Assembly: GCF_030913365.1 (NCBI RefSeq)
Contig: NZ_CP133160.1
Span: 2,952,001 to 3,016,000 of the forward strand
Reading direction: 5' to 3'
Source: Stenotrophomonas sp. 24(2023)
GTDB taxonomy: Bacteria > Pseudomonadota > Gammaproteobacteria > Xanthomonadales > Xanthomonadaceae
DNA: 64,000 bases
In this document: in pieces, positions 26,689-60,117 of the stretch
How the letters are laid out: every line of letters begins with the position of its first letter
Position numbering within the stretch: position 1 is the first letter of the stretch
The notes under the pieces: model-generated
What the model was told of the DNA's origin: nothing
Seen by the model: only the letters and a program-made list of their open reading frames with translations
Databases searched by the model: none
Program-made: the position numbers and the translations under genes

Positions 26689-29241
26689 TCAGAACTGTGT
26701 GCGCAGGGTCAGCAGATAGCTGCGCGGCGTGCCGTAGAAGTTGCCCCCGGTGGCGTAGCCGACGGTCTGGTAATAGACCTTGTCGAAGAGGTTGTCGACG
26801 TTCACCGTCGCCGTCCAGCGCGGGCTGATCTGGTACTGCGCCATCGCGTTCCAGACCGCATGGCCGGGCTGGCTGAAGTTGTAGGTGCCCAGGGCGTTCC
26901 AGTCGGCGTCGTACAGGGTGTCGGTGACGTACTGGCGGCTCTGCACGTTCACGCTGCCGCCCACTTTCCAGCGCGACAGCGCACCGTCCAGCGTGTAGGA
27001 CGTGGACAGCTTGAACAGGTGGCGCGGGGTGATGGTGCTGAACAGTGTGCGGGTGGATTCGTCGCGGGTGCGGGTGAAGGTGTAGCCGGCCGCCAGCTGC
27101 AGGCGCGGCAGCACTTCGCCACTGAGTTCGGCGTCGAAGCCACGGCTGGTCACCTTGCCCTGCGGCAGGTAGCAGCAGTTGCCCGACCATTCCTGGCGGC
27201 TGGTGGGGTAGCGGGGGTCCACCACGGCGCTGCCGGTGCGCGCCACGTTGAACACGCTGAAGGTGGCATTGGCGCGGCCTTCCCACAGTTCCCCCTTCAG
27301 CCCGGCTTCGTAGCTCTTGCCTTCCACCGGGTCCAGTGACGTGCCCGGCGGCGGGCCGGCCTTGGACAGGGCCTGCGGCTTGAGGATGGAGGCGTAGCTG
27401 AGGTACGCCGTCCACTGGTCGTTGAGGTCGTACATCACCCCGCCATAGGGCGTGGTGCGCGAGGGCTCGCGGAAGCGGCTGCCCGAAGTCAGCGTCCAGT
27501 TGCCATTGCCCGCCAGCGACTCGTACACCTGGTTGAACGCATAGCGCGACACGCGCGCGCCGAGGATCACATGCAGGCGGTCGGCCGGGTGCAGGCGCAG
27601 GACGCCGTAGGCCCCCTTCTGCGTCTGGCCCCACGGGTTGTAGCGGCGCGAGGGCGGGTTGGCCGGTGCCGGGTTCCAGGCGCCAGGATGGGCCAGGTCG
27701 ATGTCCTGCACGCCGGTCGGGGTGGGGGAATAGCCCACGTTCCAGAGGCTTTCGATTTCCTGCCGGTCCACGCCCAGCAGGAATTCATGGGTACGCCCGG
27801 CCACGGTGAACGCGCCGGACAGGCTGGCATCGGCCAGGGTCTGCTCGTTCTCGTACAGGTAATGGCCGCCGCCGTACCAGGCCACGCCCTTGCCGGTGGC
27901 CTTGTCCAGCGCGCCGTAGCCGAAGGCGGTGGTGCCGTTGTAGTCGGACGTGGAGCGCATCACGTTGAGCTTGAGCTTCCAGTGGTTGTCGAACTCGTGC
28001 GCCAGCGCGCCGAACAGTTCGGTGGTGCGGCTCTGTGCGGTCGACCACGGCTGGGTCAGGCTGGTGTGGCGGGGCAGGCCGATGTCGCTGCCATCGCTGT
28101 AGCGCGGCACATCACCGCCGCCCACGCCACGGCTGTCGACGATGGCGCGGCTGGCCCCGACGGTCAGCAGGGTGCGCGGCGTCAGGTCGGCCTCCAGCAC
28201 GGCATAGCCCTGCGGCGCGCGCTGGTGGCGGATGTCCACGAAGTAGTCGGTGTCCAGGTAGGACAGCACCGCACGGCCGCGGATGCGTCCGTCCAGCCCC
28301 AGCGGCCCGGTGGCATCGAGCATGGTCTTGCTGTGGTTCCAGCTGCCGACCTGCTGTTCGATGATGAAGCGCGCGGTGGGCAGCGGCTTCTTGCGCACCA
28401 CGTTGATGATGCCGCCCGGGTCGCCCACGCCGCCGAGCAGGCCCGAGGCACCGCGCATGACTTCCACGCGGTCGTAGAAATCCATGTTCTGGTTGACGTT
28501 GTAGGTGTAGCTGGCGATGTTCAGCGGTGCGCCGCCATCGACCTGCATGCTGTCGATCTGGAACCCGCGCGAATAGAAGTAGTTCGAATCGAAGTTCAGC
28601 TGGCTGCTGGTGATGCCGGGGGTGATCGCCAGCGCATCGCGGATGTCCACGCTGCCGTGGTCGTCGAGCTGCTGGCGGGTGATGACCGAGACCGACTGCG
28701 GAATCTCGCGGAACGACTGGTCACTCTTGGAGGCGATCGAGGTCACCCGGCTGGTGTACGAGCGTGCGTCCTCGGTGGTGCCATCGGCGGCGCGGCGCGC
28801 CATCACCTGGATGGTGGCCAGGGTCATCGCCTCGTTGCCTGCCGCCTTGGACGCGGCAGGTGCGGCCTGCAGCACGTAGCTGCCGCCACGGCCACCCACC
28901 ACCGCCAGCCCGGAACCGGCCAGCAGCTGCGCGAAGCCTTCCTGCACGCTGTACTGGCCTTTCAGCCCACTGCTGGTCCGGCCCTGCAGCAGGGCTGGCG
29001 GCATGGTGATGCTGACCCCGGCGCGCGCGGCGAAATCACCCAGGGCCAGGTCCAGCGGGCCGGCACCGATGTCATAGCTGCGGCGCGTGCTGTCCGCAGC
29101 CATGGCCTGCGGGGCCGGGGCGCCAGCGGCCTGCACGGCGGGGATGCCGGCCATCGCCACCAGCGCGCAGCGCACCATCAGCACGAGGGGGGCCGGCGCC
29201 AGGGCGCGCGGCAGCGAGGGGCGGGGGGACCAACGGGGCAT
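26689..29241 (-). CDS. TonB-dependent siderophore receptor with STN signalling domain
   Basis: An 850-residue FecA/FpvA-type outer-membrane receptor. After the signal peptide comes an STN domain (YDIGAGPLDLALGDFAARAG to GGSYVL), then the plug (REIPQSVSVITRQQLDDH, DALAITPGITSSQ, YSRGFQIDSMQVDGG) and a barrel ending SYLLTLRTQF. The STN domain contacts a FecR-type anti-sigma factor when ligand binds; both partners are encoded just upstream. The ATG at 29241 follows AGGAAGGA; an ATG at 29292 would be farther from any ribosome site. Ligand is presumably a ferric siderophore. Confidence 0.92.
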   Translation of the reverse strand: MPRWSPRPSLPRALAPAPLVLMVRCALVAMAGIPAVQAAGAPAPQAMAADSTRRSYDIGAGPLDLALGDFAARAGVSITMPPALLQGRTSSGLKGQYSVQEGFAQLLAGSGLAVVGGRGGSYVLQAAPAASKAAGNEAMTLATIQVMARRAADGTTEDARSYTSRVTSIASKSDQSFREIPQSVSVITRQQLDDHGSVDIRDALAITPGITSSQLNFDSNYFYSRGFQIDSMQVDGGAPLNIASYTYNVNQNMDFYDRVEVMRGASGLLGGVGDPGGIINVVRKKPLPTARFIIEQQVGSWNHSKTMLDATGPLGLDGRIRGRAVLSYLDTDYFVDIRHQRAPQGYAVLEADLTPRTLLTVGASRAIVDSRGVGGGDVPRYSDGSDIGLPRHTSLTQPWSTAQSRTTELFGALAHEFDNHWKLKLNVMRSTSDYNGTTAFGYGALDKATGKGVAWYGGGHYLYENEQTLADASLSGAFTVAGRTHEFLLGVDRQEIESLWNVGYSPTPTGVQDIDLAHPGAWNPAPANPPSRRYNPWGQTQKGAYGVLRLHPADRLHVILGARVSRYAFNQVYESLAGNGNWTLTSGSRFREPSRTTPYGGVMYDLNDQWTAYLSYASILKPQALSKAGPPPGTSLDPVEGKSYEAGLKGELWEGRANATFSVFNVARTGSAVVDPRYPTSRQEWSGNCCYLPQGKVTSRGFDAELSGEVLPRLQLAAGYTFTRTRDESTRTLFSTITPRHLFKLSTSYTLDGALSRWKVGGSVNVQSRQYVTDTLYDADWNALGTYNFSQPGHAVWNAMAQYQISPRWTATVNVDNLFDKVYYQTVGYATGGNFYGTPRSYLLTLRTQF

Positions 29242-29340
29242 GCGGATCGTTCCTTCCTGCGGGGCAGTGATTGGGGTCTCGCTACCTTTCACACGCGAAG
29301 CGGCAGGAAGGGACAGGCGATATGCACCCGAAGGGACGCG

Positions 29341-30318
29341 TTACCGCGCCGGCGTGGTCACCGTCACCCAGTAGGGCGTGTGGTAGACCACGCGCACCGC
29401 CAGCGCCTGCGGCAGGCTGTCCAGCAGCGGGGTGGTGTCGGCCAGCTGGAACACGCCGGAAATGCGCAGGCCGGCCACGGCCGGGTCGCAGCGCAGCACG
29501 CCGGGCCGGTAGCGGCCGAGCTCGGCCAGGAACGCGCCCAGGCGCATGTCGCGCGCGTACAGCACGCCCCGGGTCCAGTCGTCCACGTGCGGATCGGCCG
29601 GGGCCGGCGGCTGGATCGTGGTGGTGGACATCGCCGCCTGCTGGTTGGCCTGCAGTACCTGCGCGGCGCCGCTGGTGCGTGCGCGTACCGCCACGGCGCC
29701 TTCCAGCACGGCCACATGGGTCAGTGCCGGCTGCTGGCGCACGATGAAATGGGTGCCGAGCGCACGCAGGTGTCCTTCTGCCGTGCTGACCACGAACGGG
29801 CGCGCGCGCGGTTGCGGGTCCGGTGCCGTCCAGATCGCGACCGCGCCCTCGCGCAGCCGTACCAGCCGGGCCTCATCGTTGAAGTGGATGTCCACGGCAC
29901 TGGCGGTGTCCAGCTGCAGGCGCGTGCCGTCCTCCAGCTGCACGGTGCGGCCTTCGCCGGTGGCGGTGCGGTGGTCGGCCAGCCAGGTCGGGGCGGGCGC
30001 ATAGCGCCACGCCAGCCAGGCCGCCGGCCCGGTGGAGATCACCACCGCCAGGGTCTTCAGTGCAGCCCGGCGGCGCGCGGCCGGCCGGTCGAGCACCGGC
30101 ATCGCCAGCGCCGCCGGCAGCGCGCCCAGCGTCTGGCTCAGCTGCTGCGCGCGCTGCCACGCGCGTTCGTGTTCCGGATGGGCCCGGCGCCACTGCTGGC
30201 AGCGCTCCTGGTCGCGCGCGCTGGCGTCACCGTCGCGCAGCCGCAGGAACCACTCGGCGGCCTGCAGGGCGATGGATTCGCTGATCCGCGCCGGGCCTGC
30301 ACCGGCGGTGCCGCTCAT
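29341..30318 (-). CDS. fecR: FecR family anti-sigma factor/signal transducer
   Basis: A 325-residue FecR-type protein. The N-terminal cytoplasmic part has the DUF4880-type ALQAAEWFLRLRDGDASARDQERCQQWRRAHPEHERAWQR pattern (split across about 19-58), followed by a membrane segment near 95-110 and the periplasmic FecR domain (TATGEGRTVQLEDGTRLQLDTASAV). It would hold the sigma factor inactive until the receptor reports ligand. Its ATG overlaps the sigma gene stop as ATGA, so the two are coupled. Confidence 0.9.
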   Translation of the reverse strand: MSGTAGAGPARISESIALQAAEWFLRLRDGDASARDQERCQQWRRAHPEHERAWQRAQQLSQTLGALPAALAMPVLDRPAARRRAALKTLAVVISTGPAAWLAWRYAPAPTWLADHRTATGEGRTVQLEDGTRLQLDTASAVDIHFNDEARLVRLREGAVAIWTAPDPQPRARPFVVSTAEGHLRALGTHFIVRQQPALTHVAVLEGAVAVRARTSGAAQVLQANQQAAMSTTTIQPPAPADPHVDDWTRGVLYARDMRLGAFLAELGRYRPGVLRCDPAVAGLRISGVFQLADTTPLLDSLPQALAVRVVYHTPYWVTVTTPAR

Positions 30319-30869
30319 GGTGCAACCATGATGCAGCGGGCCAGTGCCTGTGCGATGTGGCGCTTGACCGTGCGCACGTTCACGCCCAGGCGCTGGGCGA
30401 TGGTGGCCTGGTCCAACCCTTCGATCTGGAACAGCAGGAAGGCGCGACGGACCTCCGGGCGCAGGCCATCGAGCATCGCATCGATGTCCTGCAGCGCCTG
30501 CAGCACGATCGCGTGCTGTTCCGATGAGGGCGCCTGCGCTTCAGGCAGGCGTGCCAGCGCATCCAGGTAGGCCTGTTCCAGCGCGCGGCGGCGGTACAGG
30601 TTGGCCAGCAGGCGCTTGGCCACCAGGGTGAGGTAGGCGCGCGGCTCCTGCAGCGACCAGCCGGCCTGTTTTTCGCTGTTTGCCTCCGGCGCGGTGATCA
30701 GCCTGACGAAGGTGTCCTGGGCCAGGTCGGCGGCATCGAAGGCATTGCCCAGCTTGCGGGCCAGCCAGCGCACCAGCCAGCCATGGTGGTCGCGATACAG
30801 CGACTGCACGCCCTCGTCGGGCGCGGCAGCAGGGCGGGGCAGGGTGGACAGGCCGTTGCTCGGGGACAT
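30315..30869 (-). CDS. fecI: FecI-type ECF sigma factor
   Basis: A 184-residue ECF sigma factor. Region 2 is in SLYRDHHGWLVRWLARKLGNAFDAADLAQDTFVRL (split at about 24-58), and region 4 in RPEVRRAFLLFQIEGLDQATIAQRLGVNVRTVKRHI (about 137-172), with a clear helix-turn-helix. It should direct RNA polymerase to the receptor promoter when released by FecR. A Fur box 51 bp upstream of the start indicates iron repression. Gene order sigma, anti-sigma, receptor is the usual iron-uptake arrangement. Confidence 0.92.
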   Translation of the reverse strand: MSPSNGLSTLPRPAAAPDEGVQSLYRDHHGWLVRWLARKLGNAFDAADLAQDTFVRLITAPEANSEKQAGWSLQEPRAYLTLVAKRLLANLYRRRALEQAYLDALARLPEAQAPSSEQHAIVLQALQDIDAMLDGLRPEVRRAFLLFQIEGLDQATIAQRLGVNVRTVKRHIAQALARCIMVAP

Positions 30870-30938: not shown

Positions 30939-31263
30939 GATGGGCGCGCCGATTGCAACGCGGGGCGGGCGACGACCGTCGTGCCGCCATAAAGCGCGAC
31001 GGCCTGCGCAGGGAGGGCGCCGGGCGATAGCAGCGGCGCGTGGTCGATGGGGTATGCATTCTTCCTAAGCTATTGAAATGCAAGAGGCTGTGTGGATTCT
31101 GGTCGGGCTGTTATGATGGTCTGCCTTCACCCACATCCCTTGCTGGAAGTGGTGGACCCGTGCCATCGCAGGCCGGTCGGACGACGCGCAAGGCGTTCGG
31201 CCACCGCCATCGGCCTTTGCCACGTTTCACCCACTTTTGGCACACAGCAGGAAGAGCAACCCT

Positions 31264-31833
31264 ATGGCGCGTGGCATCAACAAAGTCATCCTGGTCGGCA
31301 ATCTCGGCAACGACCCGGACGTGAAGTACACCCAGGGTGGCATGGCGATCACCCGCATCAGCCTGGCCACCACCAGCGTCCGCAAGGACAAGGACGGCAA
31401 CCAGCAGGAACGCACCGAATGGCACCGCGTGGTGTTCTTCGGCAAGCTGGGCGAAATCGCCGGCGAATACCTGCGCAAGGGCAGCTCGGTCTACGTCGAA
31501 GGCAGCCTGCGCTACGACAAGTACACCGGCCAGGACGGCGTGGAGAAGTACTCCACCGACATCATCGCCGACGAAATGCAGATGCTGGGCGGCCGCGGTG
31601 AAGGCGGTGGCGGTGGCGGTGGCGGTAACTACGGTGACCGTCCGCAGCGCCAGCAGGCCCCGCGCCAGGAGTACGGCGGTGGCGGCGGCCAGCGTGGCGG
31701 CCAGGGCGGTGGTTACGGCAACCAGGGCGGTGGCAACCAGGGCGGCTATGGCAACCAGGGTGGCAACCAGCGCCCGCAGCCGCAGCAGGCGCCGCCGATG
31801 GACGACTTTGCTGACGACGATATTCCGTTCTGA
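31264..31833 (+). CDS. ssb: Single-stranded DNA-binding protein
   Basis: A 189-residue SSB. The N-terminal OB fold runs from MARGINKVILVGNLGNDPDVKY to about residue 110. It is followed by a long Gly/Gln/Asn-rich linker with repeated GGNQGG and GGYGNQ units (about 117-178) and the acidic tip DDFADDDIPF, which recruits repair and replication partners. The start MARGINKV was chosen over an ATG at 31237 because SSB proteins begin there. A strong terminator follows. Confidence 0.97.
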   Translation: MARGINKVILVGNLGNDPDVKYTQGGMAITRISLATTSVRKDKDGNQQERTEWHRVVFFGKLGEIAGEYLRKGSSVYVEGSLRYDKYTGQDGVEKYSTDIIADEMQMLGGRGEGGGGGGGGNYGDRPQRQQAPRQEYGGGGGQRGGQGGGYGNQGGGNQGGYGNQGGNQRPQPQQAPPMDDFADDDIPF

Positions 31834-32202: not shown

Positions 32203-32232
32203 TTGCAAAAAAACGAATTCCTCCCGTATGGT
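32203..32232 (+). promoter_or_regulatory. Promoter of the 3-keto-glycoside operon
   Basis: TTGCAA at 32203-32208 and TATGGT at 32227-32232 with an 18-bp spacer. The LacI-type operator begins at the last base of the minus-ten box, a position suited to repression. Confidence 0.55.
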
Positions 32233-32245
32233 GCAATCGATTGCA
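32232..32245. promoter_or_regulatory. LacI-type operator, left copy
   Basis: TGCAATCGATTGCA, a perfect 14-bp palindrome, 49 bp upstream of the first gene of the rightward operon. The identical sequence occurs at 40972-40985 beside the LacI gene. Confidence 0.85.
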
Positions 32246-32294
32246 TTGCGGCGAATCATCAGGGTTTGATACCGGTTGGGAGGCCGGTACGTGG

Positions 32295-33191
32295 ATGTCC
32301 ATCGATTCGATCGGACCGGCGCCTGCGCCGGGGTTCACGCGGCGCGATGCGCTGCGCCTTGCGGTTGCCGGGAGCGTTGGCCTGGGCGCGGCGGGCGTCC
32401 TGCCCGCGTTCGCTGCCGAGGCCCCGCTCAAGGGCACGCTGAAGCATTCCGTGGCCCGCTGGACGTTTCCGCAGCTGTCGGTGGCCCAGCTCTGCCAGAC
32501 GGTGAAGGGCATTGGCTTTGCCGCCATCGATCTGGTCGGGCCGGCCGACTGGCCCACGCTCAAGGCCCACGGTGTCTACAGTTCGATGTGCAACGGCGCC
32601 GAGCTGGGGCTGACCAAAGGGTTTGCCGGCCGCCAGTTCCACGATGAACTGTTCACGCGCTACATGCGCCACATCGACCTGGTGGCCGACGCCGGCTATC
32701 GCAACCTCATCTGCTTTTCCGGCAACCGCGATGGCATGGACCCGCAGCAGGGCATGGCCCATGCCGAAGCCGGGATCAAGCGCATCCTCGGCCATGCCGA
32801 AAAGCGCGGCGTGGTGCTGGTGATGGAGCTGCTGAACTCCAAGGTCGATCATCACGACTACCTGTGCGACCACTCCGCGTGGGGCGTGGAGCTGTGCCAG
32901 CGGATCGGCTCGGATCACTTCGGCCTGCTCTACGACATCTACCACATGCAGATCATGGAAGGCGACATCATCGCCACCATCGGCAAGCATCATGCGTGCT
33001 TCAAGCACTACCACACCGCGGGCGTGCCTGGCCGACACGAGATCGGCGACCAGCAGGAACTGCACTATCCCGCCATCTGTCGCGCGATCCGCGACACCGG
33101 TTTCGATGGGTATCTGGCGCAGGAATTCATGCCTGCGGCACCGGACCCCATCGGCTCGCTGCGCGAGGCGATCCGCCTCTGCGATGTCTGA
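32295..33191 (+). CDS. Tat-exported TIM-barrel isomerase-like protein
   Basis: A 298-residue sugar phosphate isomerase/epimerase-family protein, hydroxypyruvate-isomerase-like. The N-terminus carries a twin-arginine signal (FTRRDALRLAVAGSVGLGAA, about 16-35), so it is exported folded, which is unusual for this normally cytoplasmic fold. Metal-site residues of the family are visible as Glu in VLVMELLNSKVDHHDY, Asp and His in YDIYHMQIMEG, His in FKHYHTAGVPGR, and Glu in LAQEFMP. The ATG at 32295 places the Tat motif correctly. It opens an operon with the GMC dehydrogenase and may isomerise or split the oxidised sugar in the periplasm. Confidence 0.85.
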   Translation: MSIDSIGPAPAPGFTRRDALRLAVAGSVGLGAAGVLPAFAAEAPLKGTLKHSVARWTFPQLSVAQLCQTVKGIGFAAIDLVGPADWPTLKAHGVYSSMCNGAELGLTKGFAGRQFHDELFTRYMRHIDLVADAGYRNLICFSGNRDGMDPQQGMAHAEAGIKRILGHAEKRGVVLVMELLNSKVDHHDYLCDHSAWGVELCQRIGSDHFGLLYDIYHMQIMEGDIIATIGKHHACFKHYHTAGVPGRHEIGDQQELHYPAICRAIRDTGFDGYLAQEFMPAAPDPIGSLREAIRLCDV

Positions 33192-33221
33192 AACGATATC
33201 CACCCAGGTGAAGTAGAACCC

Positions 33222-34907
33222 ATGGCAGATAATCACTACGACGCGATCGTCGTCGGCTCGGGAATCAGTGGCGGTTGGGCGGCAAAGGAACTGACCGAGA
33301 AGGGTCTGAAGGTGCTGATGCTGGAACGCGGACGCAACATCGAGCACGTCAAGGACTACGTCAATGCGATGAAGGAGGCGTGGGATTTCCCGCACCGCAA
33401 CCGGCCCACGCAGGCGATGAAGGCCGCCTATCCGGTGTTGATGCGCGACTACGGCCTGGTGGAGAACCTGCAGGGCATGTGGGCCGACGAGAAGGAATCG
33501 CCGTACATCGAGACCAAGCGCTTCGACTGGTTCCGCGGCTATCACGTGGGCGGGCGTTCGCTGCTGTGGGGGCGGCAGAGCTACCGGCTGTCGGACCTGG
33601 ATTTCCAGGCGAACCTCAAGGACGGCATCGCCACCGATTGGCCGATCCGCTACGCCGACATCGCGCCCTGGTATGACCACGTGGAGAAGTTCGCCGGCAT
33701 CGCCGGTACGCGCGAGGGGCTGGATGTGCTGCCGGATGGCGAGTTCCTGCCGCCGATCCCGCTGAACATCGTCGAGAAGGACGTGGCCGCGCGCATCAAG
33801 AAAGCTTTTGGCGGCACGCGGCACATGATCCACTCGCGCACGGCCAACATCACCCAGCCCAAGCCCGAGCAGGGCCGCGTCAACTGCCAGTACCGCAACA
33901 AATGCATCCTGGGCTGTCCCTTCGGCGCCTATTTCTCGACCCAGGCGGCAACGCTGCCGGCGGCGATGAAGACCGGCAACCTGACGCTGCGGCCGTTCTC
34001 GATCGTCAAGGAAGTGCTCTACGACAAGGACCGCAAGCGGGCACGCGGCGTGGAGATCATCGATGCCGAAACCGGCCAGACCTACCAGTACACGGCCAAC
34101 GTGATCTTCCTCAACGCCTCGGCCTTCAACTCGACCTGGCTGCTGATGAACTCGGCCACCGATGTCTGGGAGGGCGGGCTGGGCTCGTCGTCCGGTGAGC
34201 TGGGGCACAACGTGATGGACCATCACTTCGGCGCCGGTGCCTCCGGCCGGGTCGAGGGCTACGACGACAAGTACTACTTCGGGCGCCGTCCCTGTGGCTT
34301 CTACGTGCCGCGCTTCCGCAACGTGGCCGCGGACAAGCGGGGCTACCTGCGCGGGTTCGGCTACCAGGGCAGTGCCAGCCGCACCGGCTGGTCGCGCGAG
34401 ATCGCCGAGCTGAGCATCGGTGCCGACCTGAAGGAGGCGCTCACCCAGCCGGGCGACTGGCAGATCGGCATGACCGGGTTCGGCGAAATGCTGCCCCACC
34501 ACGACAACACGATCCGCCTGGACCGGCACGTCAAGGACAAATGGGGGTTGCCGGTACTGGCGATGGATGTTTCCCTGCGCGCCAACGAGAAGGCCATGCG
34601 CAAGGACATGGCCGCCGATGCCGCCGAGATGCTTGAGGCCGCCGGGGTGAAGGACGTGAAGATGCACGACAACGACTACGCCCCGGGCAAGGGCATCCAT
34701 GAAATGGGAACCGCGCGCATGGGCCGTGACCGCCGCACCTCGGTGTTGAACCAGCACAACCAGCTGTGGGATGCGCCCAATGTCTATGTCACCGATGGCG
34801 CCTGCATGACCTCCAGCGCGTGCGTGAACCCGTCGCTGACCTACATGGCGCTGACCGCGCGGGCGGCCGACCACGCCGTGCGCGAACTGAAAGCGGGGAA
34901 CCTGTGA
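33222..34907 (+). CDS. GMC flavoprotein dehydrogenase, large subunit (glucoside 3-dehydrogenase-like)
   Basis: A 561-residue GMC oxidoreductase. The FAD-binding motif VGSGISGGWAAKEL is near 9-22. Cys222, Cys228 and Cys232 form C-x5-C-x3-C, the same spacing that binds a 3Fe-4S cluster in the FAD-glucose dehydrogenase catalytic subunit of Burkholderia. The C-terminal catalytic region shows the His of IHEMGTARMG and the Asn of SACVNPSLTYMAL. It has no signal peptide of its own and should ride out with the Tat-tagged small subunit, whose ATG overlaps its stop. With that subunit and the cytochrome c it resembles LacA/LacC/LacB of Caulobacter, which oxidise sugars at carbon 3. Confidence 0.9.
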   Translation: MADNHYDAIVVGSGISGGWAAKELTEKGLKVLMLERGRNIEHVKDYVNAMKEAWDFPHRNRPTQAMKAAYPVLMRDYGLVENLQGMWADEKESPYIETKRFDWFRGYHVGGRSLLWGRQSYRLSDLDFQANLKDGIATDWPIRYADIAPWYDHVEKFAGIAGTREGLDVLPDGEFLPPIPLNIVEKDVAARIKKAFGGTRHMIHSRTANITQPKPEQGRVNCQYRNKCILGCPFGAYFSTQAATLPAAMKTGNLTLRPFSIVKEVLYDKDRKRARGVEIIDAETGQTYQYTANVIFLNASAFNSTWLLMNSATDVWEGGLGSSSGELGHNVMDHHFGAGASGRVEGYDDKYYFGRRPCGFYVPRFRNVAADKRGYLRGFGYQGSASRTGWSREIAELSIGADLKEALTQPGDWQIGMTGFGEMLPHHDNTIRLDRHVKDKWGLPVLAMDVSLRANEKAMRKDMAADAAEMLEAAGVKDVKMHDNDYAPGKGIHEMGTARMGRDRRTSVLNQHNQLWDAPNVYVTDGACMTSSACVNPSLTYMALTARAADHAVRELKAGNL

Positions 34908-35494
34908 TGGAACGCCGCGAACTGCTGAAGATGATCGTCGCTGCCACCGGTGCGGCGATGATAGGCCTGCCGCTCCCAGGGCAGGCGCAGGCCCCGGCCC
35001 CGGCGCCGGTTGCGGGGGCTGCGCCGCTGTTCACCGCTGCCGACATCGTCATGCTGGATGAGATTGCCGAGACCATCCTGCCGCGCACCGGCACGCCGGG
35101 TGCCAAGGACACCGCTGCCGGGCAGTTCATGGCGCAGTTCGTCAGCGCCTGCTACACCGCCCAGCAGCAGGCGACGTTCCGTGCCGGCCTGGCCGACATC
35201 GACGCGCGCGCCGGCGGCCGCTTCGTATCCCTCACACCGCAGGCCCGCACCGCGCTGCTGCGCACGCTGGATACAGAGGCCAGGGCGCGCAGCGTCGAGG
35301 TGAACGAAACCGGCACCACCGCGTCGGCCAAGGCGGCACCGCACTACTTCACGATGATCAAGCAGCTGACCATCTTCGGTTTCTTCACCTCCAAGGTCGG
35401 TGCGACCGAGGTGCTGAAGTACGTGGCCGTACCCGGCCGCTACGACGGCGATCTTGCCTATGCGCCGGGTACGCCTGCCTGGGCGACCAGCTGA
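34907..35494 (+). CDS. Gluconate 2-dehydrogenase subunit 3 family protein (small subunit of the GMC enzyme)
   Basis: A 195-residue small subunit. MERRELLKMIVAATGAAMI is a twin-arginine signal, which would carry the large subunit across the inner membrane. The mature part has the family's DEIAETILPRTGTPGAKDT segment (about 47-65) and a C-terminal FFTSKVGATEVLKYVAVPGRYDGD block. The start overlaps the GMC stop as TGATG. Small subunits of this type are needed for export and maturation of GMC dehydrogenases and lack catalytic residues. Confidence 0.88.
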   Translation: MERRELLKMIVAATGAAMIGLPLPGQAQAPAPAPVAGAAPLFTAADIVMLDEIAETILPRTGTPGAKDTAAGQFMAQFVSACYTAQQQATFRAGLADIDARAGGRFVSLTPQARTALLRTLDTEARARSVEVNETGTTASAKAAPHYFTMIKQLTIFGFFTSKVGATEVLKYVAVPGRYDGDLAYAPGTPAWATS

Positions 35495-35538
35495 TGGACC
35501 GCCCCTCTTCGCTGATGCCTCACTCTCCAGGAAACCCG

Positions 35539-36285
35539 ATGACCCGACCCTTGCTGATCGCGGCCTGCCTGCTGGCTGCAGCGCCGGCGCTGGCGCTGGC
35601 GCAGACCGCCGATCCTGCGCGTGATCCGGCCCGCACCGAAGTGTGGAAACCCGTGCCTGCGGTGGTGGCCACGCCCGCCGGCGCCGCACCGTCCGATGCG
35701 ATCGTGCTGTTCGATGGCAAGGATGTGTCCGCCTGGGAAGCGGAGCAGGGCGGCCGCGTGCCCTGGACGGTGGCCAAGGGGGCGTTGACCGTGGTGCCGG
35801 GCAGCAAGGGCATCCGCACCCGGCAACGCTTCTGCGATATCCAGCTGCACGTCGAGTGGCGCACACCCACGGAAACGCGCGGCTTCGATGGCCAGCACCG
35901 CGGCAACAGCGGCATCTTCCTGCAGGAGCTGTACGAGCTGCAGGTGCTCGACAGCTACAACAACCCGACCTATGCCAACGGCCAGGCCGGCTCGATTTAC
36001 AAGCAGGCCATGCCGCTGGTGAATGCTTCACGTGCGCCGGGCCAGTGGCAGGTGTACGACATCATCTGGAAGGCGCCGCGCTTCTCGCCGGGCGGCGGGC
36101 TCGCTTCGCCTGCCCGCATCACGGTGCTGCACAACGGGGTGCTGGTGCAGGATGACACGGTGCTGGCCGGCAAGACCGAATACATCGGCGCGCCTTCCTA
36201 CGCGCCGCATGCCTGTGCGCCGCTCTACCTGCAGGAGCACGATTCGAAGGTCAGTTACCGCAACATCTGGGTGCGCGAGCTGTAA
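35539..36285 (+). CDS. Exported DUF1080 (3-keto-disaccharide hydrolase) protein
   Basis: A 248-residue protein with a Sec signal peptide (LLIAACLLAAAPALALA) and a DUF1080 jelly-roll domain: IVLFDGKDVSAWE (about 55-67), FCDIQLHVEWRTP, RGNSGIFLQELYELQVLDSY and the C-terminal KVSYRNIWVREL. DUF1080 proteins cleave 3-keto-glycosides by elimination after carbon 3 has been oxidised. It follows the dehydrogenase subunits, in keeping with that order of reactions. The ATG at 35539 puts the signal peptide at the N-terminus; the one at 35494 overlaps the preceding stop and adds 15 residues. Confidence 0.88.
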   Translation: MTRPLLIAACLLAAAPALALAQTADPARDPARTEVWKPVPAVVATPAGAAPSDAIVLFDGKDVSAWEAEQGGRVPWTVAKGALTVVPGSKGIRTRQRFCDIQLHVEWRTPTETRGFDGQHRGNSGIFLQELYELQVLDSYNNPTYANGQAGSIYKQAMPLVNASRAPGQWQVYDIIWKAPRFSPGGGLASPARITVLHNGVLVQDDTVLAGKTEYIGAPSYAPHACAPLYLQEHDSKVSYRNIWVREL

Positions 36286-36321
36286 CAGCGTGCCGCCGGA
36301 ACCTGCGCCGGCGGCAGCGGC

Positions 36322-36618
36322 CTACTTCGCCAGGTAGCTGGCGATATCGTCGATCTCCTGCGGGGACAGCTGGGAGAAGGGCGGCATCAACCCGCCGCCC
36401 TTGCGGATCTTTTCCTTGATCTGTGCAGGTTGCAGGCGCTTGCCGATATCGGTGAGCGCCGGGAACGCGCCGGGGACACCGGCGCGGTTGGCGCCGTGGC
36501 AGGCGGTGCAGTTGGCTGCATACAGCTGCGCACCGGCCGCAGGGTCCTCCTTGGACCACGCCGTGGATGCATGCGTCGCCGTGCCAAGCAGCACGGCCAT
36601 TCCCAGGATCGTCTTCAT
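36322..36618 (-). CDS. Small periplasmic cytochrome c
   Basis: A 98-residue class I cytochrome c. After a signal peptide comes the haem motif C-T-A-C-H (Cys37, Cys40, His41), and Met78 in GGGLMPPF is the likely axial ligand. It probably takes electrons from the GMC dehydrogenase through its iron-sulfur cluster and passes them to the respiratory chain. It is the last gene of the leftward operon and converges with the DUF1080 gene with 36 bp between the stops. Confidence 0.9.
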   Translation of the reverse strand: MKTILGMAVLLGTATHASTAWSKEDPAAGAQLYAANCTACHGANRAGVPGAFPALTDIGKRLQPAQIKEKIRKGGGLMPPFSQLSPQEIDDIASYLAK

Positions 36619-36636
36619 GCCGGGCTCCTTCGCGTG

Positions 36637-37503
36637 TCAGTGCTGCGCGCCGGCGGGCGCGCTGACGGTCAGGTGGTCACGCAGGTAGTCCGCCCCGGTC
36701 TGGATGACCTTGGCCGGATCGCGCGGCTGGTCATGTTCGATGATGTACCACTTCACCCCGGCACGGGCGGCGGCGGGCAGGATCGCATTCCAGTCCAGCA
36801 CGCCCTGGCCGACGGCGGCGAATCCGCCTTCGTCGACGGCCTGGCCCTTGGGCGCGTTGTCCTTGGCGTGTACGGCGAACAGGTGGCCCTTGAACTTCCC
36901 CAGCATCACCGCCGGGTCGTGGCCGGCGCGTGCCACCCAGGCCAGGTCCAGCTCGGTGCGCAGGTCGGGGCCGGCGGCGGCGAACAGCAACTCCAGGCCG
37001 GTTCTGCCATCGAAGTCGACCAGCTCGAAATCGTGATTGTGGTAGGCCAGCTGCAGGCCCTTGGCCCGCACGCGCGCCGCCAGCGTGCCCAGTTCCTTGC
37101 CCAGCGCGGTCCAGCCGGCGGCATCGGTCGGCCGGTCCGGCTTGTCCAGGTAGGGCACCACCAGCACGGTGTTGCCGATGGCGCGGTTGAAGGCGACCAC
37201 GCCGTCGAGATCGCGGCGCAGTTCGGCCAGCTGCACGTGGGACGAGATCGCCTTGATCGCATAGCGGTCGAGCAGCTGCTTGAGTTCGGTGGCGCTGACG
37301 TTCTGCGTGCCGACCGTTTCCACCGCGCCGATGCCGGCGTCGTGGACGATCTTCAGCTGCTGGTCCAGCGGGCCGGCGTTGCGCAGCGTGTACATCTGCA
37401 CGGCGATCGGTTTGCGCGGGGCGGCGGCCTCATGGGCGAAGGCCGGCAGGGCAGACAGAAGCAGCAGTGCGAGGGTGGCGGTCCTGCGTGCAGCGGTGTT
37501 CAT
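36637..37503 (-). CDS. Sec-exported TIM-barrel isomerase-like protein
   Basis: A 288-residue sugar phosphate isomerase/epimerase-family protein with a Sec signal (TATLALLLLSALPAFA). Family features are IAVQMYTLRNAGPLDQ, the Glu in GIGAVETVG, His in AYHNHDFEL, and Glu/Asp in TELDLAWVARAGHDP. It is a second exported member of this fold in the same locus. The ATG at 37503 was chosen since it puts the signal peptide first; an upstream ATG at 37569 adds a Pro-rich unrelated stretch. Confidence 0.87.
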   Translation of the reverse strand: MNTAARRTATLALLLLSALPAFAHEAAAPRKPIAVQMYTLRNAGPLDQQLKIVHDAGIGAVETVGTQNVSATELKQLLDRYAIKAISSHVQLAELRRDLDGVVAFNRAIGNTVLVVPYLDKPDRPTDAAGWTALGKELGTLAARVRAKGLQLAYHNHDFELVDFDGRTGLELLFAAAGPDLRTELDLAWVARAGHDPAVMLGKFKGHLFAVHAKDNAPKGQAVDEGGFAAVGQGVLDWNAILPAAARAGVKWYIIEHDQPRDPAKVIQTGADYLRDHLTVSAPAGAQH

Positions 37504-37522
37504 CAGAAAGTTCTCCCGGAAT

Positions 37523-38647
37523 TCATTCGATGGGGGCCCAGGCACGCGACCTGGCCGATGCGATGACACGATCGACGATCAGCGCCGAGCGCACGCCGTC
37601 TTCAACGGTGGGCAGGCCCTGCGGCTGCTCGCCGTCGATGGCGCGATAGGTGTCGGCGACAAACGCCTCGAAACATTGGCCGTAGCCCTGGGCATGCCCG
37701 GCCGGCAGGACCGACAGCCGACGCTGCTCGGCACTGCCGGCCCCCGGACCCCGCACGAAGATCTCCTCGCGCTGGTCGGGCAGGCCGATCCACAGCCGCT
37801 CGGCGTCCTCCTGGTTGAAGGCCACGCTGGCCCGCGCGCCGTCGATCTCGAACCAGAGGCGGTTGTGGCGCCCGGCCGACACCTGGCTGACCGTCAACGA
37901 GGCCAGTGTGCCCGCGCCGGTCCTGAACATCGCGGTGGCCACGTCCTCGCTGGCAACCGCCTGCATCGCCCCGCCGGCTGCCGGTGTGGCGAAGCTCTGC
38001 CCGGCTGTGGCGCCGCGCTCGGCGATGACCGTGGCGAAGGCCGCGCTGACCTCGGTGAAGCGTTCGCCGCTGACCCATTCCACCAGGTCGCACCAGTGCG
38101 AACCGATGTCGGCGAACACGCGCGAGGTGCCGCCCAGCGCAGGATCAACGCGCCAGTTGTTGCTGGCCGGGTCCAGCAGCCAGTCTTGCAGGTAGCTGCC
38201 GTGGATCAGGTGCAGCGGCCCCAGTTCACCCTGGGCGATGCGCGCGCGTGCCTCGCGCACCACCGGGTGGTAGCGGTAGACGAAGGGCACCGTGGCGACC
38301 CGCCCGTTGGCGGCAGCCAGTGCCGCCAGGGCCCGGGCGTCTTCGAGCGTCGTGGCCAGCGGCTTCTCGCAGATCACGTGCTTGCCCGCTTCCAGCGCCG
38401 CCTGCGCCATGGCGCGGTGCAGATGGTTGGGGGTGCAGACATGCACGACCTGCACCTGCGGATCAGCGACGGCCTCCTCGATGTCCCGGTAGGCGCGCGG
38501 GACATTCCACGCACGAGCCACCGCATCTGCGCGCTGCGGGGAAGAGCCGGCAATCCCGCGGATCCGGGCACCGGCCAGCAGGGCCGCGCGATGATGCACG
38601 GCGCCGATCATGCCGGTGCCGACGATGGCGATTCCCAGCGTGCGCAT
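37523..38647 (-). CDS. Gfo/Idh/MocA family oxidoreductase
   Basis: A 374-residue NAD(P)-dependent sugar oxidoreductase. The Rossmann motif IVGTGMIGAVHH is at 8-19 and the catalytic-region EKP at 94-96 in VICEKPLATT. No signal peptide is seen, so it is cytoplasmic. In 3-keto-sugar pathways such enzymes reduce the ketone back to the plain sugar. Its ATG overlaps the stop of the permease gene as ATGA, tying uptake to this step. Confidence 0.9.
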   Translation of the reverse strand: MRTLGIAIVGTGMIGAVHHRAALLAGARIRGIAGSSPQRADAVARAWNVPRAYRDIEEAVADPQVQVVHVCTPNHLHRAMAQAALEAGKHVICEKPLATTLEDARALAALAAANGRVATVPFVYRYHPVVREARARIAQGELGPLHLIHGSYLQDWLLDPASNNWRVDPALGGTSRVFADIGSHWCDLVEWVSGERFTEVSAAFATVIAERGATAGQSFATPAAGGAMQAVASEDVATAMFRTGAGTLASLTVSQVSAGRHNRLWFEIDGARASVAFNQEDAERLWIGLPDQREEIFVRGPGAGSAEQRRLSVLPAGHAQGYGQCFEAFVADTYRAIDGEQPQGLPTVEDGVRSALIVDRVIASARSRAWAPIE

Positions 38648-39876
38648 CAGCGGCGTGCCCCGGCAGGGGAGGGCGCGGCTGCCGTGGCTGGCCGGTCGCG
38701 GAACAGCAGCAGGAAGGCGATCAGCACGACCAGCGCGACGCCGGCCGGGAACAGCCAGATCTGCCGCCAGTCCGGCCCGGCGGCGGTGGTGTAGTGCTCG
38801 ACCACCGCGCCGGACAGGAACGTGCCGATCAACATGCCCACGCCGTAGGTGGCCAGGGTGATGAAGCCCTGCGCGCTGCTGCGCACGGCGGGGCCGGCGT
38901 GCGCATCGGTGTAGATCTGGCCGGTGACGAAGAAGAAGTCATAGCAGATGCCGTGCAGCACGATGCCGAGCACCAGCAGCGAGAAGCCGCTGCCCGCATC
39001 GCCAAAGGCGAACAGGGCATAGCGCACCACCCAGGCGGCCATGCCCACCGCCAGCATCGTCTTGACCCCCAGCCGCACGAACAGGAACGGCATGGCCAGC
39101 ATCAGCAGCACTTCGGAGACCTGGCCCAGCGACTGCAGGCCGGCCGCGCCGTGTACGCCCAGATCGTTGAGATACGGGTTGGTGAAGTTGTAGTAGAACG
39201 CCAGCGGGATGCAGATGGCGATGGAGGCCAGGAAGAACACCAGGTACGAGCGCGACTTCAGCAGCCGCAGCGAATCCAGGCCCAGGATCTGCCCCAGCCC
39301 GGCGTCGCGCTGCTGTGCCAGCGGCGGCGTGTGCGGCAGGGTGAAGGCGTACAGGCCCAGGGCCAGCGAAGCCAGCGCGGCCATCCGGAACGTCAGTTCA
39401 AGACGGTGCGCCTGTTCCCAGCCGAGCCAGCCGATCAGCACGCCGGCCACGATCCAGCCGATGCTGCCGGCCACCCGCACCAGCGGGAACTGCTTCTCGG
39501 GCGACTGCATGTGCCGCATCGCCACGCTGTTGGCCAGCGCCAGGGTCGGCATGAACAGCAGCATGTAGCCCATGACGCAGGCGGAGAACACGCTGAAGCT
39601 GGTCGCCGTGGAGGCCAGCCACATCAGCACCGCGCCGGCCAGGTGCAGCACCGCCAGGATGCGCTGCGCGGCGAAGTAGCGATCGGCGACCAGGCCGACC
39701 AGGAAGGGCGCGACGATCGCGCCGATGGACTGGCTGAGGAAGGCCGTCGCCACCTGGCTCGCGCTGGCCTGCAACGGGCCTTGCACCAGGTACGTGCCGA
39801 GGGTCACGAACCATGCCCCCCAGATGAAGAACTGCAGAAACATCATCGCGCCCAAGCGCGACATGGCGTGCGTCAT
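38647..39876 (-). CDS. MFS permease, nucleoside:H+ symporter (NupG-like) branch
   Basis: A 409-residue inner-membrane transporter with about 12 hydrophobic segments. FLQFFIWGAWFVTLGTYL (about 14-31) and the SVAMRHMQSPEKQFPLVRVAGSIGWI region are typical of the NupG/nucleoside-symporter branch, members of which occur in many sugar loci. Context suggests it imports the keto-sugar released in the periplasm. It lies between two enzyme genes on the same strand. Confidence 0.82.
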   Translation of the reverse strand: MTHAMSRLGAMMFLQFFIWGAWFVTLGTYLVQGPLQASASQVATAFLSQSIGAIVAPFLVGLVADRYFAAQRILAVLHLAGAVLMWLASTATSFSVFSACVMGYMLLFMPTLALANSVAMRHMQSPEKQFPLVRVAGSIGWIVAGVLIGWLGWEQAHRLELTFRMAALASLALGLYAFTLPHTPPLAQQRDAGLGQILGLDSLRLLKSRSYLVFFLASIAICIPLAFYYNFTNPYLNDLGVHGAAGLQSLGQVSEVLLMLAMPFLFVRLGVKTMLAVGMAAWVVRYALFAFGDAGSGFSLLVLGIVLHGICYDFFFVTGQIYTDAHAGPAVRSSAQGFITLATYGVGMLIGTFLSGAVVEHYTTAAGPDWRQIWLFPAGVALVVLIAFLLLFRDRPATAAAPSPAGARR

Positions 39877-39903
39877 GGCTTGCCCTCCCGGGGCGGTAAC
39901 GGC

Positions 39904-40956
39904 TCAGAGTCCCAGCATGCGGTGCAGTGATTGCGGATCGGTGCCGCTGTCGGCGAAATCGTCGAAGGCGCGTCCGGTCACGCGGATGAGGTGGTCGCGG
40001 ATGAAGGCGGCGCCCTCCCGTGCGCCGTCCTCGGGGTGTTTCAGGCAGCATTCCCATTCGAGCACGGCCCAGCCCGGGAACTCGTACTGTGCGAACTTCG
40101 AGAAGATCGCCTTGAAGTCGATCTGGCCATCCCCGAGCGAGCGGAACCGCCCCGGGCGATCGATCCAGTCCTCGTAGCCGCCATATACGCCACTGCGCGC
40201 GCTGGCGCGGTATTCCGCGTCCTTGACGTGGAAGATGCCGATGCGCGGGTGGTAGCGGTCGATGAAGCCCAGGTAGTCGATGTGCTGCAGCAGCAGGTGG
40301 CTGGGGTCGTAGAGGATCTTCGCGCGCCGGTGGTGGTCCACCACGTCCAGGAAGCGCTCGAAGGTCGCGCCGTCGTGCAGGTCCTCGCCCGGGTGGATCT
40401 CGAAGCACAGGTCCACGCCGCAGGCATCGAAGGCATCGAGGATCGGGCGCCAGCGGCGGCCCAGTTCGGCGAAGGCCGCCTCCACCAGCCCGGGCGGGCG
40501 TTGTGGCCAGGGGTAGAAGTAGGGCCAGGCCAGTGCGCCGGAGAACGTGGCATGCGCGGTCAGCCCCAGGCGCTGGCTGGCTTTGGCGGCCAGCAGCAGC
40601 TGCTCCACGGCCCAGGCCTGGCGGGCGGCCGGGTCGCCGCGCTTGTCGGCCGGTGCGAATCCGTCGAACAGGCTGTCGTACGCCGGGTGGACCGCGACCA
40701 GCTGGCCCTGCAGGTGGGTGGACAGCTCGGTGATCTGCAGGCCATGCCCGGCCAGCATGCCGGCGATGTCATCGCAGTACGCCTGGCTGCGCGCCGCCTC
40801 GGCCAGATCGAACAGGTGGGGCGCGCTGGTCGGCACTTGTAGGCCAGAATAGCCCAGGCCCGCGGCCCATCCAGCCAGCGTGTCCAGCCGATCAAAGGGA
40901 GGTGTGTCGCCGATGAACTGCGCCAGGAACAGCGCTGGACCCTTGAGTGTCTTCAA
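39904..40956 (-). CDS. Cytoplasmic TIM-barrel isomerase/epimerase-like protein
   Basis: A 350-residue sugar phosphate isomerase/epimerase-family enzyme without a signal peptide. Metal-binding residues are visible as Glu in LCFEIHPGED, Asp and His in LYDPSHLLLQH, His in IGIFHVKDAEY, and Glu in AVLEWECCLK. It starts the leftward operon. The start is uncertain: a TTG at 40956 (LKTLKGPALFLAQF, with GGGGCGA upstream) begins where relatives of the family begin, whereas an ATG at 40986 adds 10 residues and would lie partly inside the operator palindrome. I favour the TTG. Confidence 0.82.
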   Translation of the reverse strand: MKTLKGPALFLAQFIGDTPPFDRLDTLAGWAAGLGYSGLQVPTSAPHLFDLAEAARSQAYCDDIAGMLAGHGLQITELSTHLQGQLVAVHPAYDSLFDGFAPADKRGDPAARQAWAVEQLLLAAKASQRLGLTAHATFSGALAWPYFYPWPQRPPGLVEAAFAELGRRWRPILDAFDACGVDLCFEIHPGEDLHDGATFERFLDVVDHHRRAKILYDPSHLLLQHIDYLGFIDRYHPRIGIFHVKDAEYRASARSGVYGGYEDWIDRPGRFRSLGDGQIDFKAIFSKFAQYEFPGWAVLEWECCLKHPEDGAREGAAFIRDHLIRVTGRAFDDFADSGTDPQSLHRMLGL

Positions 40957-40971
40957 GCGGATTCGCCCCGA

Positions 40972-40985
40972 TGCAATCGATTGCA
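40972..40985. promoter_or_regulatory. LacI-type operator, right copy
   Basis: TGCAATCGATTGCA, identical to 32232-32245. It lies between the leftward operon and the divergent LacI gene, 65 bp before the latter's start, so it can control both. Confidence 0.85.
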
Positions 40986-41050
40986 TTATCCTACACGGGC
41001 TTTCCGCAGGACCTGTTGTGCAGTGCACAGCGGCATGAAGAACTGAAGCC

Positions 41051-42058
41051 ATGGCCACCATCTACGACATCGCAAAGCACGTCGGCGTCTCCGCCGGCAC
41101 CGTCTCGCGGGCGCTTTCCCGGCCGGAGAAAGTCCTGCCGGCCACCCGCGCGCGCATCGAGCAGGCCGCCGCCGCGCTGGGTTATGTGCCCAACACGATC
41201 GCCCGGACGCTCAAGACCCAGCGCAGCGGCAAGATCCTGGTTACCGTGCCGGACATCGCCAACCCGTTCTTCGCCCAGATCCTGCAGGGCGCCGAAGAAG
41301 CGGCGCAGGCCGTTGGCTATGCGGTGCTGCTGGGCGATACCCAGCATCGCCCCGACCGTGAGGAGCGGTATGCGCAGATGCTCCGGCGCAACGAGGCCGA
41401 TGGCCTGATCGTGCTGGGGCATCGGCTGCCGCCGACCGCGCGGGAGATCGTCCAGCAACAGGGGGCCGCCGCGCCGGTGGTCAATGGCTGCGAGTTCGAC
41501 CCCGCGCTGGGCATTCCCAGCGTCCACATCGACAACGCGGCGGCCGCACGCGCGGTGATGGAGCACCTGTATGGGCTGGGGCACGAGCGGATCGCCGTGA
41601 TCGGCGGCCCGCCGGACAATCCCCTGCACACCCAGCGGCTGGAAGGGGTGCGCGCGGCCGGCAAGGCTCGTGGCCGCCTGCGCCAGCTCAGCGTCGCGCC
41701 GGGCGATTTTTCCGTGGAATCCGGCCATGCGGCCGCCCTCGCGCTGCTGGCCGACACGCCGGTACCGACCGCGATCTTCTGCTTCAGCGACCAGATGGCG
41801 CTGGGCGCCCTGGCCGCCTGCCGGGACCGGGGCATCCGCGTGCCGGAGGACCTGTCCATCGTCGGCTTCGACGATCTGGCCTCGTCGCAGTACCTCACGC
41901 CCCCGCTGACCACCGTCCGGCAGCCCATGCGCGAGATCGGCGCCCGCGCGGTCAACCTGCTGCTGGCGATCATCGAGAGCGTGGACGTGCCGCTCCAGCA
42001 GACGCTGGATTTCAGCCTGATGCTGCGCGGCTCGACGGGGGCGCCGGGCGGCGGGTAA
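41051..42058 (+). CDS. LacI family repressor of the 3-keto-glycoside locus
   Basis: A 335-residue LacI-family regulator. The helix-turn-helix is TIYDIAKHVGVSAGTVSRAL (about 3-22), the hinge helix is in NTIARTLKT, and the sensor domain follows (LVTVPDIANPFFAQILQGAE to VGFDDLASSQYLTPPLT). It is divergent from the catabolic operon with a perfect LacI-type palindrome in between, and the same palindrome stands before the other operon. I infer that it represses both and itself until a sugar inducer binds. Confidence 0.92.
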   Translation: MATIYDIAKHVGVSAGTVSRALSRPEKVLPATRARIEQAAAALGYVPNTIARTLKTQRSGKILVTVPDIANPFFAQILQGAEEAAQAVGYAVLLGDTQHRPDREERYAQMLRRNEADGLIVLGHRLPPTAREIVQQQGAAAPVVNGCEFDPALGIPSVHIDNAAAARAVMEHLYGLGHERIAVIGGPPDNPLHTQRLEGVRAAGKARGRLRQLSVAPGDFSVESGHAAALALLADTPVPTAIFCFSDQMALGALAACRDRGIRVPEDLSIVGFDDLASSQYLTPPLTTVRQPMREIGARAVNLLLAIIESVDVPLQQTLDFSLMLRGSTGAPGGG

Positions 42059-59947: not shown

Positions 59948-60117
59948 CACCACAGGACATCGCAGCCGCGATGTCCTGTGGTGCAACGTCGGCCTTTCAT
60001 GGCGGGCGGTGCGTGGGGATCTTCGGATCCACCGGTTTCGATGGTTTGCCCGGCATTCCAACCACGCACTGTCCGCCACCTCTGCGGTGGCGTCACCCCT
60101 TTCGGGAGACCGACGTC
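59948..60117 (+). ncRNA. Candidate structured RNA leader
   Basis: Several mutually compatible stems lie between here and the next start codon. A perfect 16-bp stem with loop AGCC spans 59948-59983. 59986-59992 pairs with 60110-60116. 60009-60016 pairs with 60062-60069. 60017-60030 is a 5-bp stem capped by TTCG. 60074-60092 is a 7-bp stem. The ribosome site GGGAG (60104-60108) can pair with upstream CCC. This could be a cis-regulatory leader or an independent small RNA; no known class is recognised. Confidence 0.5.

Follow-up and report, generated by a model that had tools for sequence, protein, structure and literature searches.

Among the closest described systems to the locus studied here is the four-enzyme glucoside pathway of Agrobacterium tumefaciens, which comprises GlycDH, AtOGE, AtHYD, and Gfo (PMC10628242; this and the other papers cited are covered in part). 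The LacABC/DUF1080 lactose system of Caulobacter crescentus has been studied genetically, with a Halomonas titanicae cluster as a genomic case (PMC9007349). Escherichia coli YcjR, a 3-keto-D-glucoside 4-epimerase (PDB 6WN6), also counts among the closest known systems. The same chemical logic is said to underlie the oxidation/elimination modules BT2156–BT2160 of gut Bacteroides (Nature 2024), a 2024 paper in Angewandte reportedly shares the theme of an oxidation-elimination pathway, and a 2006 study is said to have purified a glucoside 3-dehydrogenase from S. maltophilia. Here, we analyze positions 32203–42058 of a 64,000-nucleotide stretch of the Stenotrophomonas sp. 24(2023) genome (contig NZ_CP133160.1, 2,952,001–3,016,000; hereafter the window). 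With a probability of roughly 0.82, this locus encodes a self-contained, LacI-repressed pathway in which oxidation, elimination, hydration, and reduction would together degrade β-glucosides and related glycosides. From gene content, active-site residues, signal sequences recognized by eye, operators, and conservation, we infer the reactions, the transport substrate, and the inducer.

The locus resembles the Agrobacterium pathway in its GMC oxidoreductase with a twin-arginine (Tat) small subunit, an eliminase with all named residues, a hydratase, and a Gfo/Idh/MocA oxidoreductase (Gfo) (PMC10628242). In all eight Rhizobiaceae loci fetched, a LacI-family gene likewise adjoins the pathway genes; however, DUF1080, the TIM-barrel protein TIM1, and the MFS permease are not in the stretch fetched, and Gfo is 27–31% identical to that of the window. 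Halomonadaceae loci, among them that of Vreelandella titanicae BH1 (L038), which is taken to be the Halomonas titanicae cluster of PMC9007349, differ in a Gfo of 30–32% identity, in gene order, and in having no exact operator copy within the loci. Relative to the Bacteroides modules, the window differs in that its oxidase is a GMC flavoprotein and its Gfo scores 41 bits for BT_2158 (cutoff 750) and 47 bits for BT_2159 (cutoff 650).

Published work already covers the chemistry and most of the genes, in Agrobacterium (PMC10628242) and in Caulobacter and Halomonas (PMC9007349), which weakens the suggestion in a preliminary description of the locus that the full combination may be undescribed. What we have not seen in the published descriptions, as far as they are covered here, are evidence for the operators, a Gfo that has diverged and may have been displaced, a Luteimonas eliminase–DUF1080 fusion, and signal sequences on the eliminases. 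No paper pairing Stenotrophomonas with the pathway terms was found, a weak negative given that most subscription journals lie outside the coverage. The main text of a survey of LacI regulons (PMC4052901; supplements not searched) contains neither Xanthomon-, Stenotrophomonas, nor 3-keto.

Gene content and predicted activities

An open reading frame (ORF) list and a Pfam scan give 10 open genes in two convergent operons and one LacI-family gene; all of the genes and families named in the preliminary description are present, open, and Pfam-confirmed. The + strand operon runs TIM1, GMC, small subunit, DUF1080, with a 30-nucleotide (nt) gap behind TIM1 and one-base overlaps thereafter. The − strand operon runs hydratase, permease, Gfo, eliminase, cytochrome c. 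The operon tails converge with 36 nt between them, and lacI is divergent from the hydratase gene.

32295–33191, +: TIM1, AP_endonuc_2 TIM barrel, hydroxypyruvate-isomerase-like, predicted Tat-exported (Pfam)
33222–34907, +: GMC oxidoreductase, predicted glycoside 3-dehydrogenase large subunit (Pfam)
34907–35494, +: Gluconate_2-dh3 small subunit, twin-arginine signal by eye (Pfam)
35494–36285, +: DUF1080/3-keto-disaccharide hydrolase family protein, signal peptide by eye (PF06439)
36322–36618, −: single-heme c-type cytochrome (CTACH), signal peptide (Pfam)
36637–37503, −: predicted 3-keto-O-glycoside β-eliminase, AtOGE relative, AP_endonuc_2, Sec-type signal sequence (Pfam, 8BVK match)
37523–38647, −: Gfo/Idh/MocA oxidoreductase, predicted 3-keto-glucose reductase (Pfam)
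38647–39876, −: MFS permease (PF03825), nucleoside:H+ symporter family, predicted to import the elimination product or a 3-keto-sugar
39904–40956, −: predicted 2-hydroxy-3-keto-glucal hydratase, AP_endonuc_2, TTG start (Pfam, 8RO4 match)
41051–42058, +: LacI-family predicted repressor (Pfam, NCBIfam)

The comparison across Stenotrophomonas and Xanthomonas that had been proposed finds the same gene order in 23 loci from Stenotrophomonas, Xanthomonas, Pseudoxanthomonas, Luteimonas, and [Pseudomonas] boreopolis, among the best 80 of 585 relatives in an eliminase scan of named genomes. We grouped these loci as Xanthomonadaceae by our own judgment rather than from a taxonomy. Because the same order recurs in 23 named loci, the set is no chance neighborhood.

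Three proteins had been described as isomerase-like, and database records label these genes xylose or hydroxypyruvate isomerases. The family assignments stand, but two of the proteins now match an eliminase (8BVK) and a hydratase (8RO4), leaving TIM1 as the third. The protein encoded at 37503–36637 aligns with 8BVK at 318 bits. This structure is the Agrobacterium O-glycoside β-eliminase AtOGE, in which His132, Asp163, His189, and, weakly, Glu233 bind the metal and His134 is the catalytic base (PMC10628242). When positions are counted along the alignment, AtOGE H132, H134, D163, H189, E233, E39, H66, and E161 are all identical in the window protein, which carries the His132/His134/Asp163/His189/Glu233 set of a predicted Mn-dependent 3-keto-O-glycoside β-eliminase. 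The enzyme of the elimination step is most likely this TIM barrel rather than DUF1080, to which we ascribe a probable second cleavage activity. By eye, the window eliminase has a Sec-type signal sequence, as do related proteins in the Agrobacterium-type loci shown, while "signal peptide" has no match in the main text of PMC10628242. Because of this sequence, elimination would probably occur in the periplasm, with its product, rather than the glycoside, being imported.

The protein encoded at 40956–39904 aligns end to end, across 350 residues, with 8RO4 (593 bits), a structure deposited under the name 2-hydroxy-3-keto-glucal hydratase. In Agrobacterium, preliminary evidence led to a second operon protein being assigned as hydratase, and a Gfo protein was assigned as the reductase (PMC10628242). 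We take the hydratase start to be the TTG at 40956, since the longer listed ORF would cross an operator and the first residue of 8RO4 aligns with the TTG. No signal peptide was seen by eye, and the enzyme is predicted to be cytoplasmic. Three genomes of the same genus (G071, G098, and G124) have a second hydratase copy elsewhere, at 63–64% identity.

The GMC protein is 76–77% identical to that of seven Rhizobiaceae loci, and the hydratase 71–72% identical to the Rhizobiaceae copies. A GMC-family protein and a Tat-signal small subunit are both encoded, as for a GMC C3 dehydrogenase, and C3 regiospecificity is predicted; the small subunit would ferry the GMC subunit out of the cytoplasm. Signal sequences are visible on the eliminase, DUF1080, cytochrome, small subunit, and TIM1. 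GMC, small subunit, cytochrome c, and a predicted exported DUF1080 are encoded together, as in the LacABC/DUF1080 system, where LacC is presumably a cytochrome c.

Gfo follows a different pattern of conservation. Within the family, it is 82–90% identical, but it falls to 27–36% against five other named groups, to which GMC is 74–80%, hydratase 64–72%, and eliminase 50–62% identical (35–36% for the Alteromonas eliminase). The Gfo proteins of the Agrobacterium-type locus L046 and of L038 are 45% identical to each other (317 bits). L046 Gfo is a close relative of 3V5N (534 bits), and its top match in the window genome is the same Gfo gene, at 129 bits. The window Gfo itself scores 150 bits for 3V5N and best, at 168 bits, for 6A3F, which we take to be a levoglucosan dehydrogenase. 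It retains K95, D180, and H184, presumably the catalytic residues, and by eye it has no signal sequence. We prefer the interpretation that the last enzyme was exchanged in Xanthomonadaceae; strong divergence would be the alternative.

The metal site of TIM1 is intact, with E178, D214, H240, and E277 invariant. TIM1 scores 81 bits for hydroxypyruvate isomerase (TIGR03234, cutoff 353) and 83 bits for 2-oxo-tetronate isomerase (NF043033, cutoff 325), in each case below the curated cutoff. It is most likely a metal-dependent periplasmic epimerase or isomerase acting on 3-keto-glycosides. A more specific proposal, which we regard as doubtful, is that TIM1 is a 3-keto-glycoside epimerase (acting at C4, for example) that converts 3-keto-galactosides and others to 3-keto-glucosides in the periplasm, and that the permease transports 2-hydroxy-3-keto-glucal. 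If so, a single β-glucoside-specific eliminase, permease, and hydratase could serve many glycosides. We know of no recognized transporter for 2-hydroxy-3-keto-glucal as a substrate class.

Genome-wide at E 0.001, all three PF01261 genes and the sole PF06439 and PF13618 genes fall within the regulon. Because every such gene found in the genome sits here, deletions in the regulon would not be masked by paralogues of these families, so that one could test directly how eliminase and DUF1080 divide the work, how import proceeds, and what TIM1 does. The locus thereby offers a compact, single-copy, cleanly regulated candidate oxidation-elimination route in a plant- and soil-associated bacterial family.

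Predicted operators and promoters

A single LacI operator had been assumed; we found two identical ones. The palindrome TGCAATCGATTGCA occurs in exactly two perfect copies in the 4,519,927-base genome, one before each operon. A genome scan gave ten further sites with two mismatches, and the backward control gave none. Within the window, three matches at two or fewer mismatches compare with a mean of 0.2 in 100 dinucleotide shuffles.

32203–32232, +: probable promoter of the + strand operon (TTGCAA, 18 nt, TATGGT), reaching operator 1; by eye and from 22 related loci
32232–32245: predicted LacI-family operator 1, TGCAATCGATTGCA, before the + strand operon
32271–32288, +: conserved leader hairpin ACCGGTTGGGAGGCCGGT, containing a GGGAGG ribosome-site-like motif
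36292–36315: perfect 8-bp inverted repeat GCCGCCGG..CCGGCGGC between the operon ends, terminator-like but without a T-run (from sequence)
40972–40985: predicted LacI-family operator 2, TGCAATCGATTGCA, right after a conserved TAGGAT −10-like element and also in front of lacI
41016–41029: second palindrome TTGTGCAGTGCACA, upstream of the hydratase promoter

Palindromic operators with a central CG are typical of LacI proteins, and such a palindrome precedes both operons and the regulator gene. The −10-like hexamers TATGGT and TAGGAT directly precede operators 1 and 2, respectively; an operator right behind such a hexamer is the arrangement expected of an initiation-blocking repressor. We identified the promoters by eye and by similarity across 22 and 23 related loci. 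The LacI protein has CytR as its top NCBIfam model, at 318 bits, under the cutoff of 436.

Of 247 genomes surveyed in the family, 35 count as hydratase-positive (E 1e-100 or better) and the other 212 as negatives. Exact operator copies number two in 23 of the hydratase-positive genomes, one in two, and none in ten. Two exact copies are thus found in 23/35 positives and in one negative (G110; Fisher p ~1e-22, for genomes that share descent). Each of the ten positives lacking an exact operator has exactly two TTCAATCGATTGMA sites, one of them adjoining the hydratase, a half-site variant pattern that we picked after viewing the Xanthomonas loci; it recurs in 3/212 negatives. When the exact and variant patterns are pooled, two sites are present in 33/35 positives versus 2/212 negatives (G110 and G192). 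The operator pair, with core CAATCGATTG, is also seen in all 22 named loci that reach far enough; the remaining locus, L020, stops before TIM1. These operator data are strong evidence for a local, predicted LacI-type regulon.

Two further elements lie near the operators. The hairpin-like motif ACCGGTTGGGAGGCCGGT lies about 44 nt past operator 1 and has close likenesses in 22 related leaders (L009–L019, L021–L030, and L036; in L030 it was matched by eye after the script had anchored on another GGGAGG). It is kept even where TIM1 begins some 190–270 nt past the operator, as in Pseudoxanthomonas and Luteimonas, and could serve a small leader ORF as its ribosome site or be recognized by an RNA-binding regulator. 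The palindrome TTGTGCAGTGCACA has a single perfect copy in the genome, and by eye almost every related locus has a similar sequence for the half facing the hydratase.

Proposed route and alternatives

In the route that we propose, GMC and its Tat-exported small subunit would oxidize the sugar at C3 in the periplasm and pass electrons to cytochrome c. The exported eliminase would then strip the aglycone or second sugar from the 3-keto-β-glucoside, giving 2-hydroxy-3-keto-glucal, while exported DUF1080 would cleave linkages beyond the reach of the eliminase, whether α-linked or galactosidic. The nucleoside-symporter-type permease would bring the keto-sugar in, the cytoplasmic hydratase would add water to form 3-keto-glucose, and Gfo would reduce this to glucose. 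LacI would hold both identical operators until an intermediate or glucoside accumulates. The natural substrates are most likely plant-type sugar conjugates. The sequence of oxidation, elimination, import, and reduction drawn in the preliminary description fits the homologies, although the hydratase step (40956–39904) was missing from it. Its statement that no classical glycosidase is involved holds for the locus; the genome as a whole encodes four GH3 proteins (other glycosidase families were not searched).

We favor eliminase and DUF1080 as two parallel branches that join at 3-keto-sugars. AtOGE prefers β-glucosides and cleaves 3'-keto-cellobiose but not 3'-keto-maltose (PMC10628242), and a Caulobacter DUF1080 protein was proposed as a 3'-ketolactose hydrolase in a fitness study, with another cited as a 3-ketotrehalose hydrolase (PMC9007349); the parallel arrangement is favored because of this difference in reported substrates. 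The main rival, so placed because of a natural eliminase–DUF1080 fusion of the Luteimonas type, would have the two enzymes act in series: the eliminase makes 2-hydroxy-3-keto-glucal in the periplasm, DUF1080 hydrates it there, 3-keto-glucose is imported, and the hydratase is a backup or serves another substrate. The fusion suggests consecutive steps on one molecule, and both proteins are probably exported. However, the fused DUF1080 is just 25% identical to that of the window, and alongside it the Luteimonas loci encode a close DUF1080 as a separate protein. In the groups outside Xanthomonadaceae, moreover, GMC is the only enzyme better conserved than the dedicated hydratase, and the hydrolase role proposed for DUF1080 (PMC9007349) also speaks against hydration by this protein. 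Overall, we consider action in series unlikely.

A regulon devoted chiefly to lactose and other galactosides, with DUF1080 as the main cleaver as in the Caulobacter lacABC/DUF1080 system, is rather improbable. The salicin and raffinose phenotypes in PMC9007349 point to broad substrates, the β-glucoside preference of AtOGE (PMC10628242) points away from galactosides, and no feature of the locus is specific to them. A pathway for levoglucosan or another anhydrosugar, with Gfo as the first oxidase, would follow the same four-step logic and agrees with the top NCBIfam model of Gfo (levoglucosan dehydrogenase NF052479, 186 bits) and its top PDB chain, 6A3F, but is very improbable, as 186 bits is far under the cutoff of 650 and an oxidase, GMC with its small subunit and cytochrome, is already encoded in the locus.

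Several observations weigh against the route that we propose. The permease falls in a nucleoside transporter family, and the window DUF1080 is remote from solved DUF1080 proteins apart from 4QHZ, which has a generic name only. The window Gfo is 28% identical to the Agrobacterium-type Gfo of L046 (137 bits), and its reductase role rests for this reason on position and family. A similarity search missed the cytochrome gene in 4 of the 23 related loci. TIM1 has no counterpart in the stretch fetched for the eight Rhizobiaceae loci, and the Foldseek matches for its fold also include 7DRD, which we take to be a C-glycoside deglycosylating enzyme. On the regulatory side, a generic sigma-70 scan gave, by its own rules, no promoter; at least one exact operator copy occurs in 18/212 hydratase-negative genomes; and the hydratase-positive G173 and G208 have a single exact operator each. 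The operator counts come from one family, whose genomes are not independent, and the variant half-site pattern was no independent choice.

Variants of the locus and neighboring features

The nearest named loci are those of Stenotrophomonas and Xanthomonas. Some of the 23 same-order loci have inserts, and L020 is ended by a contig end. Halomonas, Paracoccus, Celeribacter, and Alteromonas loci hold much of the set in rearranged form. All eight Rhizobiaceae loci have hydratase, Gfo, eliminase, and LacI, and 7/8 have GMC with the small subunit; in L046, a sugar-type ABC transporter, rather than the permease, lies alongside.

Luteimonas L028 (9935–11410) encodes an eliminase–DUF1080 fusion protein, its domains confirmed, and genes for a second GMC/small-subunit pair come next. 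L029 shows the same match pattern and may carry such a fusion. Both domains are present in 16 of 120 listed homologues (P0121–P0136), out of 1257 at E 0.001. In three Pseudomonas-type loci (L056, L057, and L062), Gfo, hydratase, permease, and eliminase accompany a LacI gene, and GMC and DUF1080 are not in the stretch fetched, which suggests that their keto-glycosides are produced elsewhere.

Elsewhere in the window, positions 59995–60083 match the Rfam C4 antisense RNA at 75 bits (gathering score 45), with no adjoining phage-like ORF of at least 180 aa seen by eye. Upstream of the regulon, 26689–30869 holds genes resembling those for a TonB receptor, FecR, and a sigma factor, which by eye look like a probable iron-uptake set. 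An SSB-like gene (31237–31833) lies between this set and the regulon.

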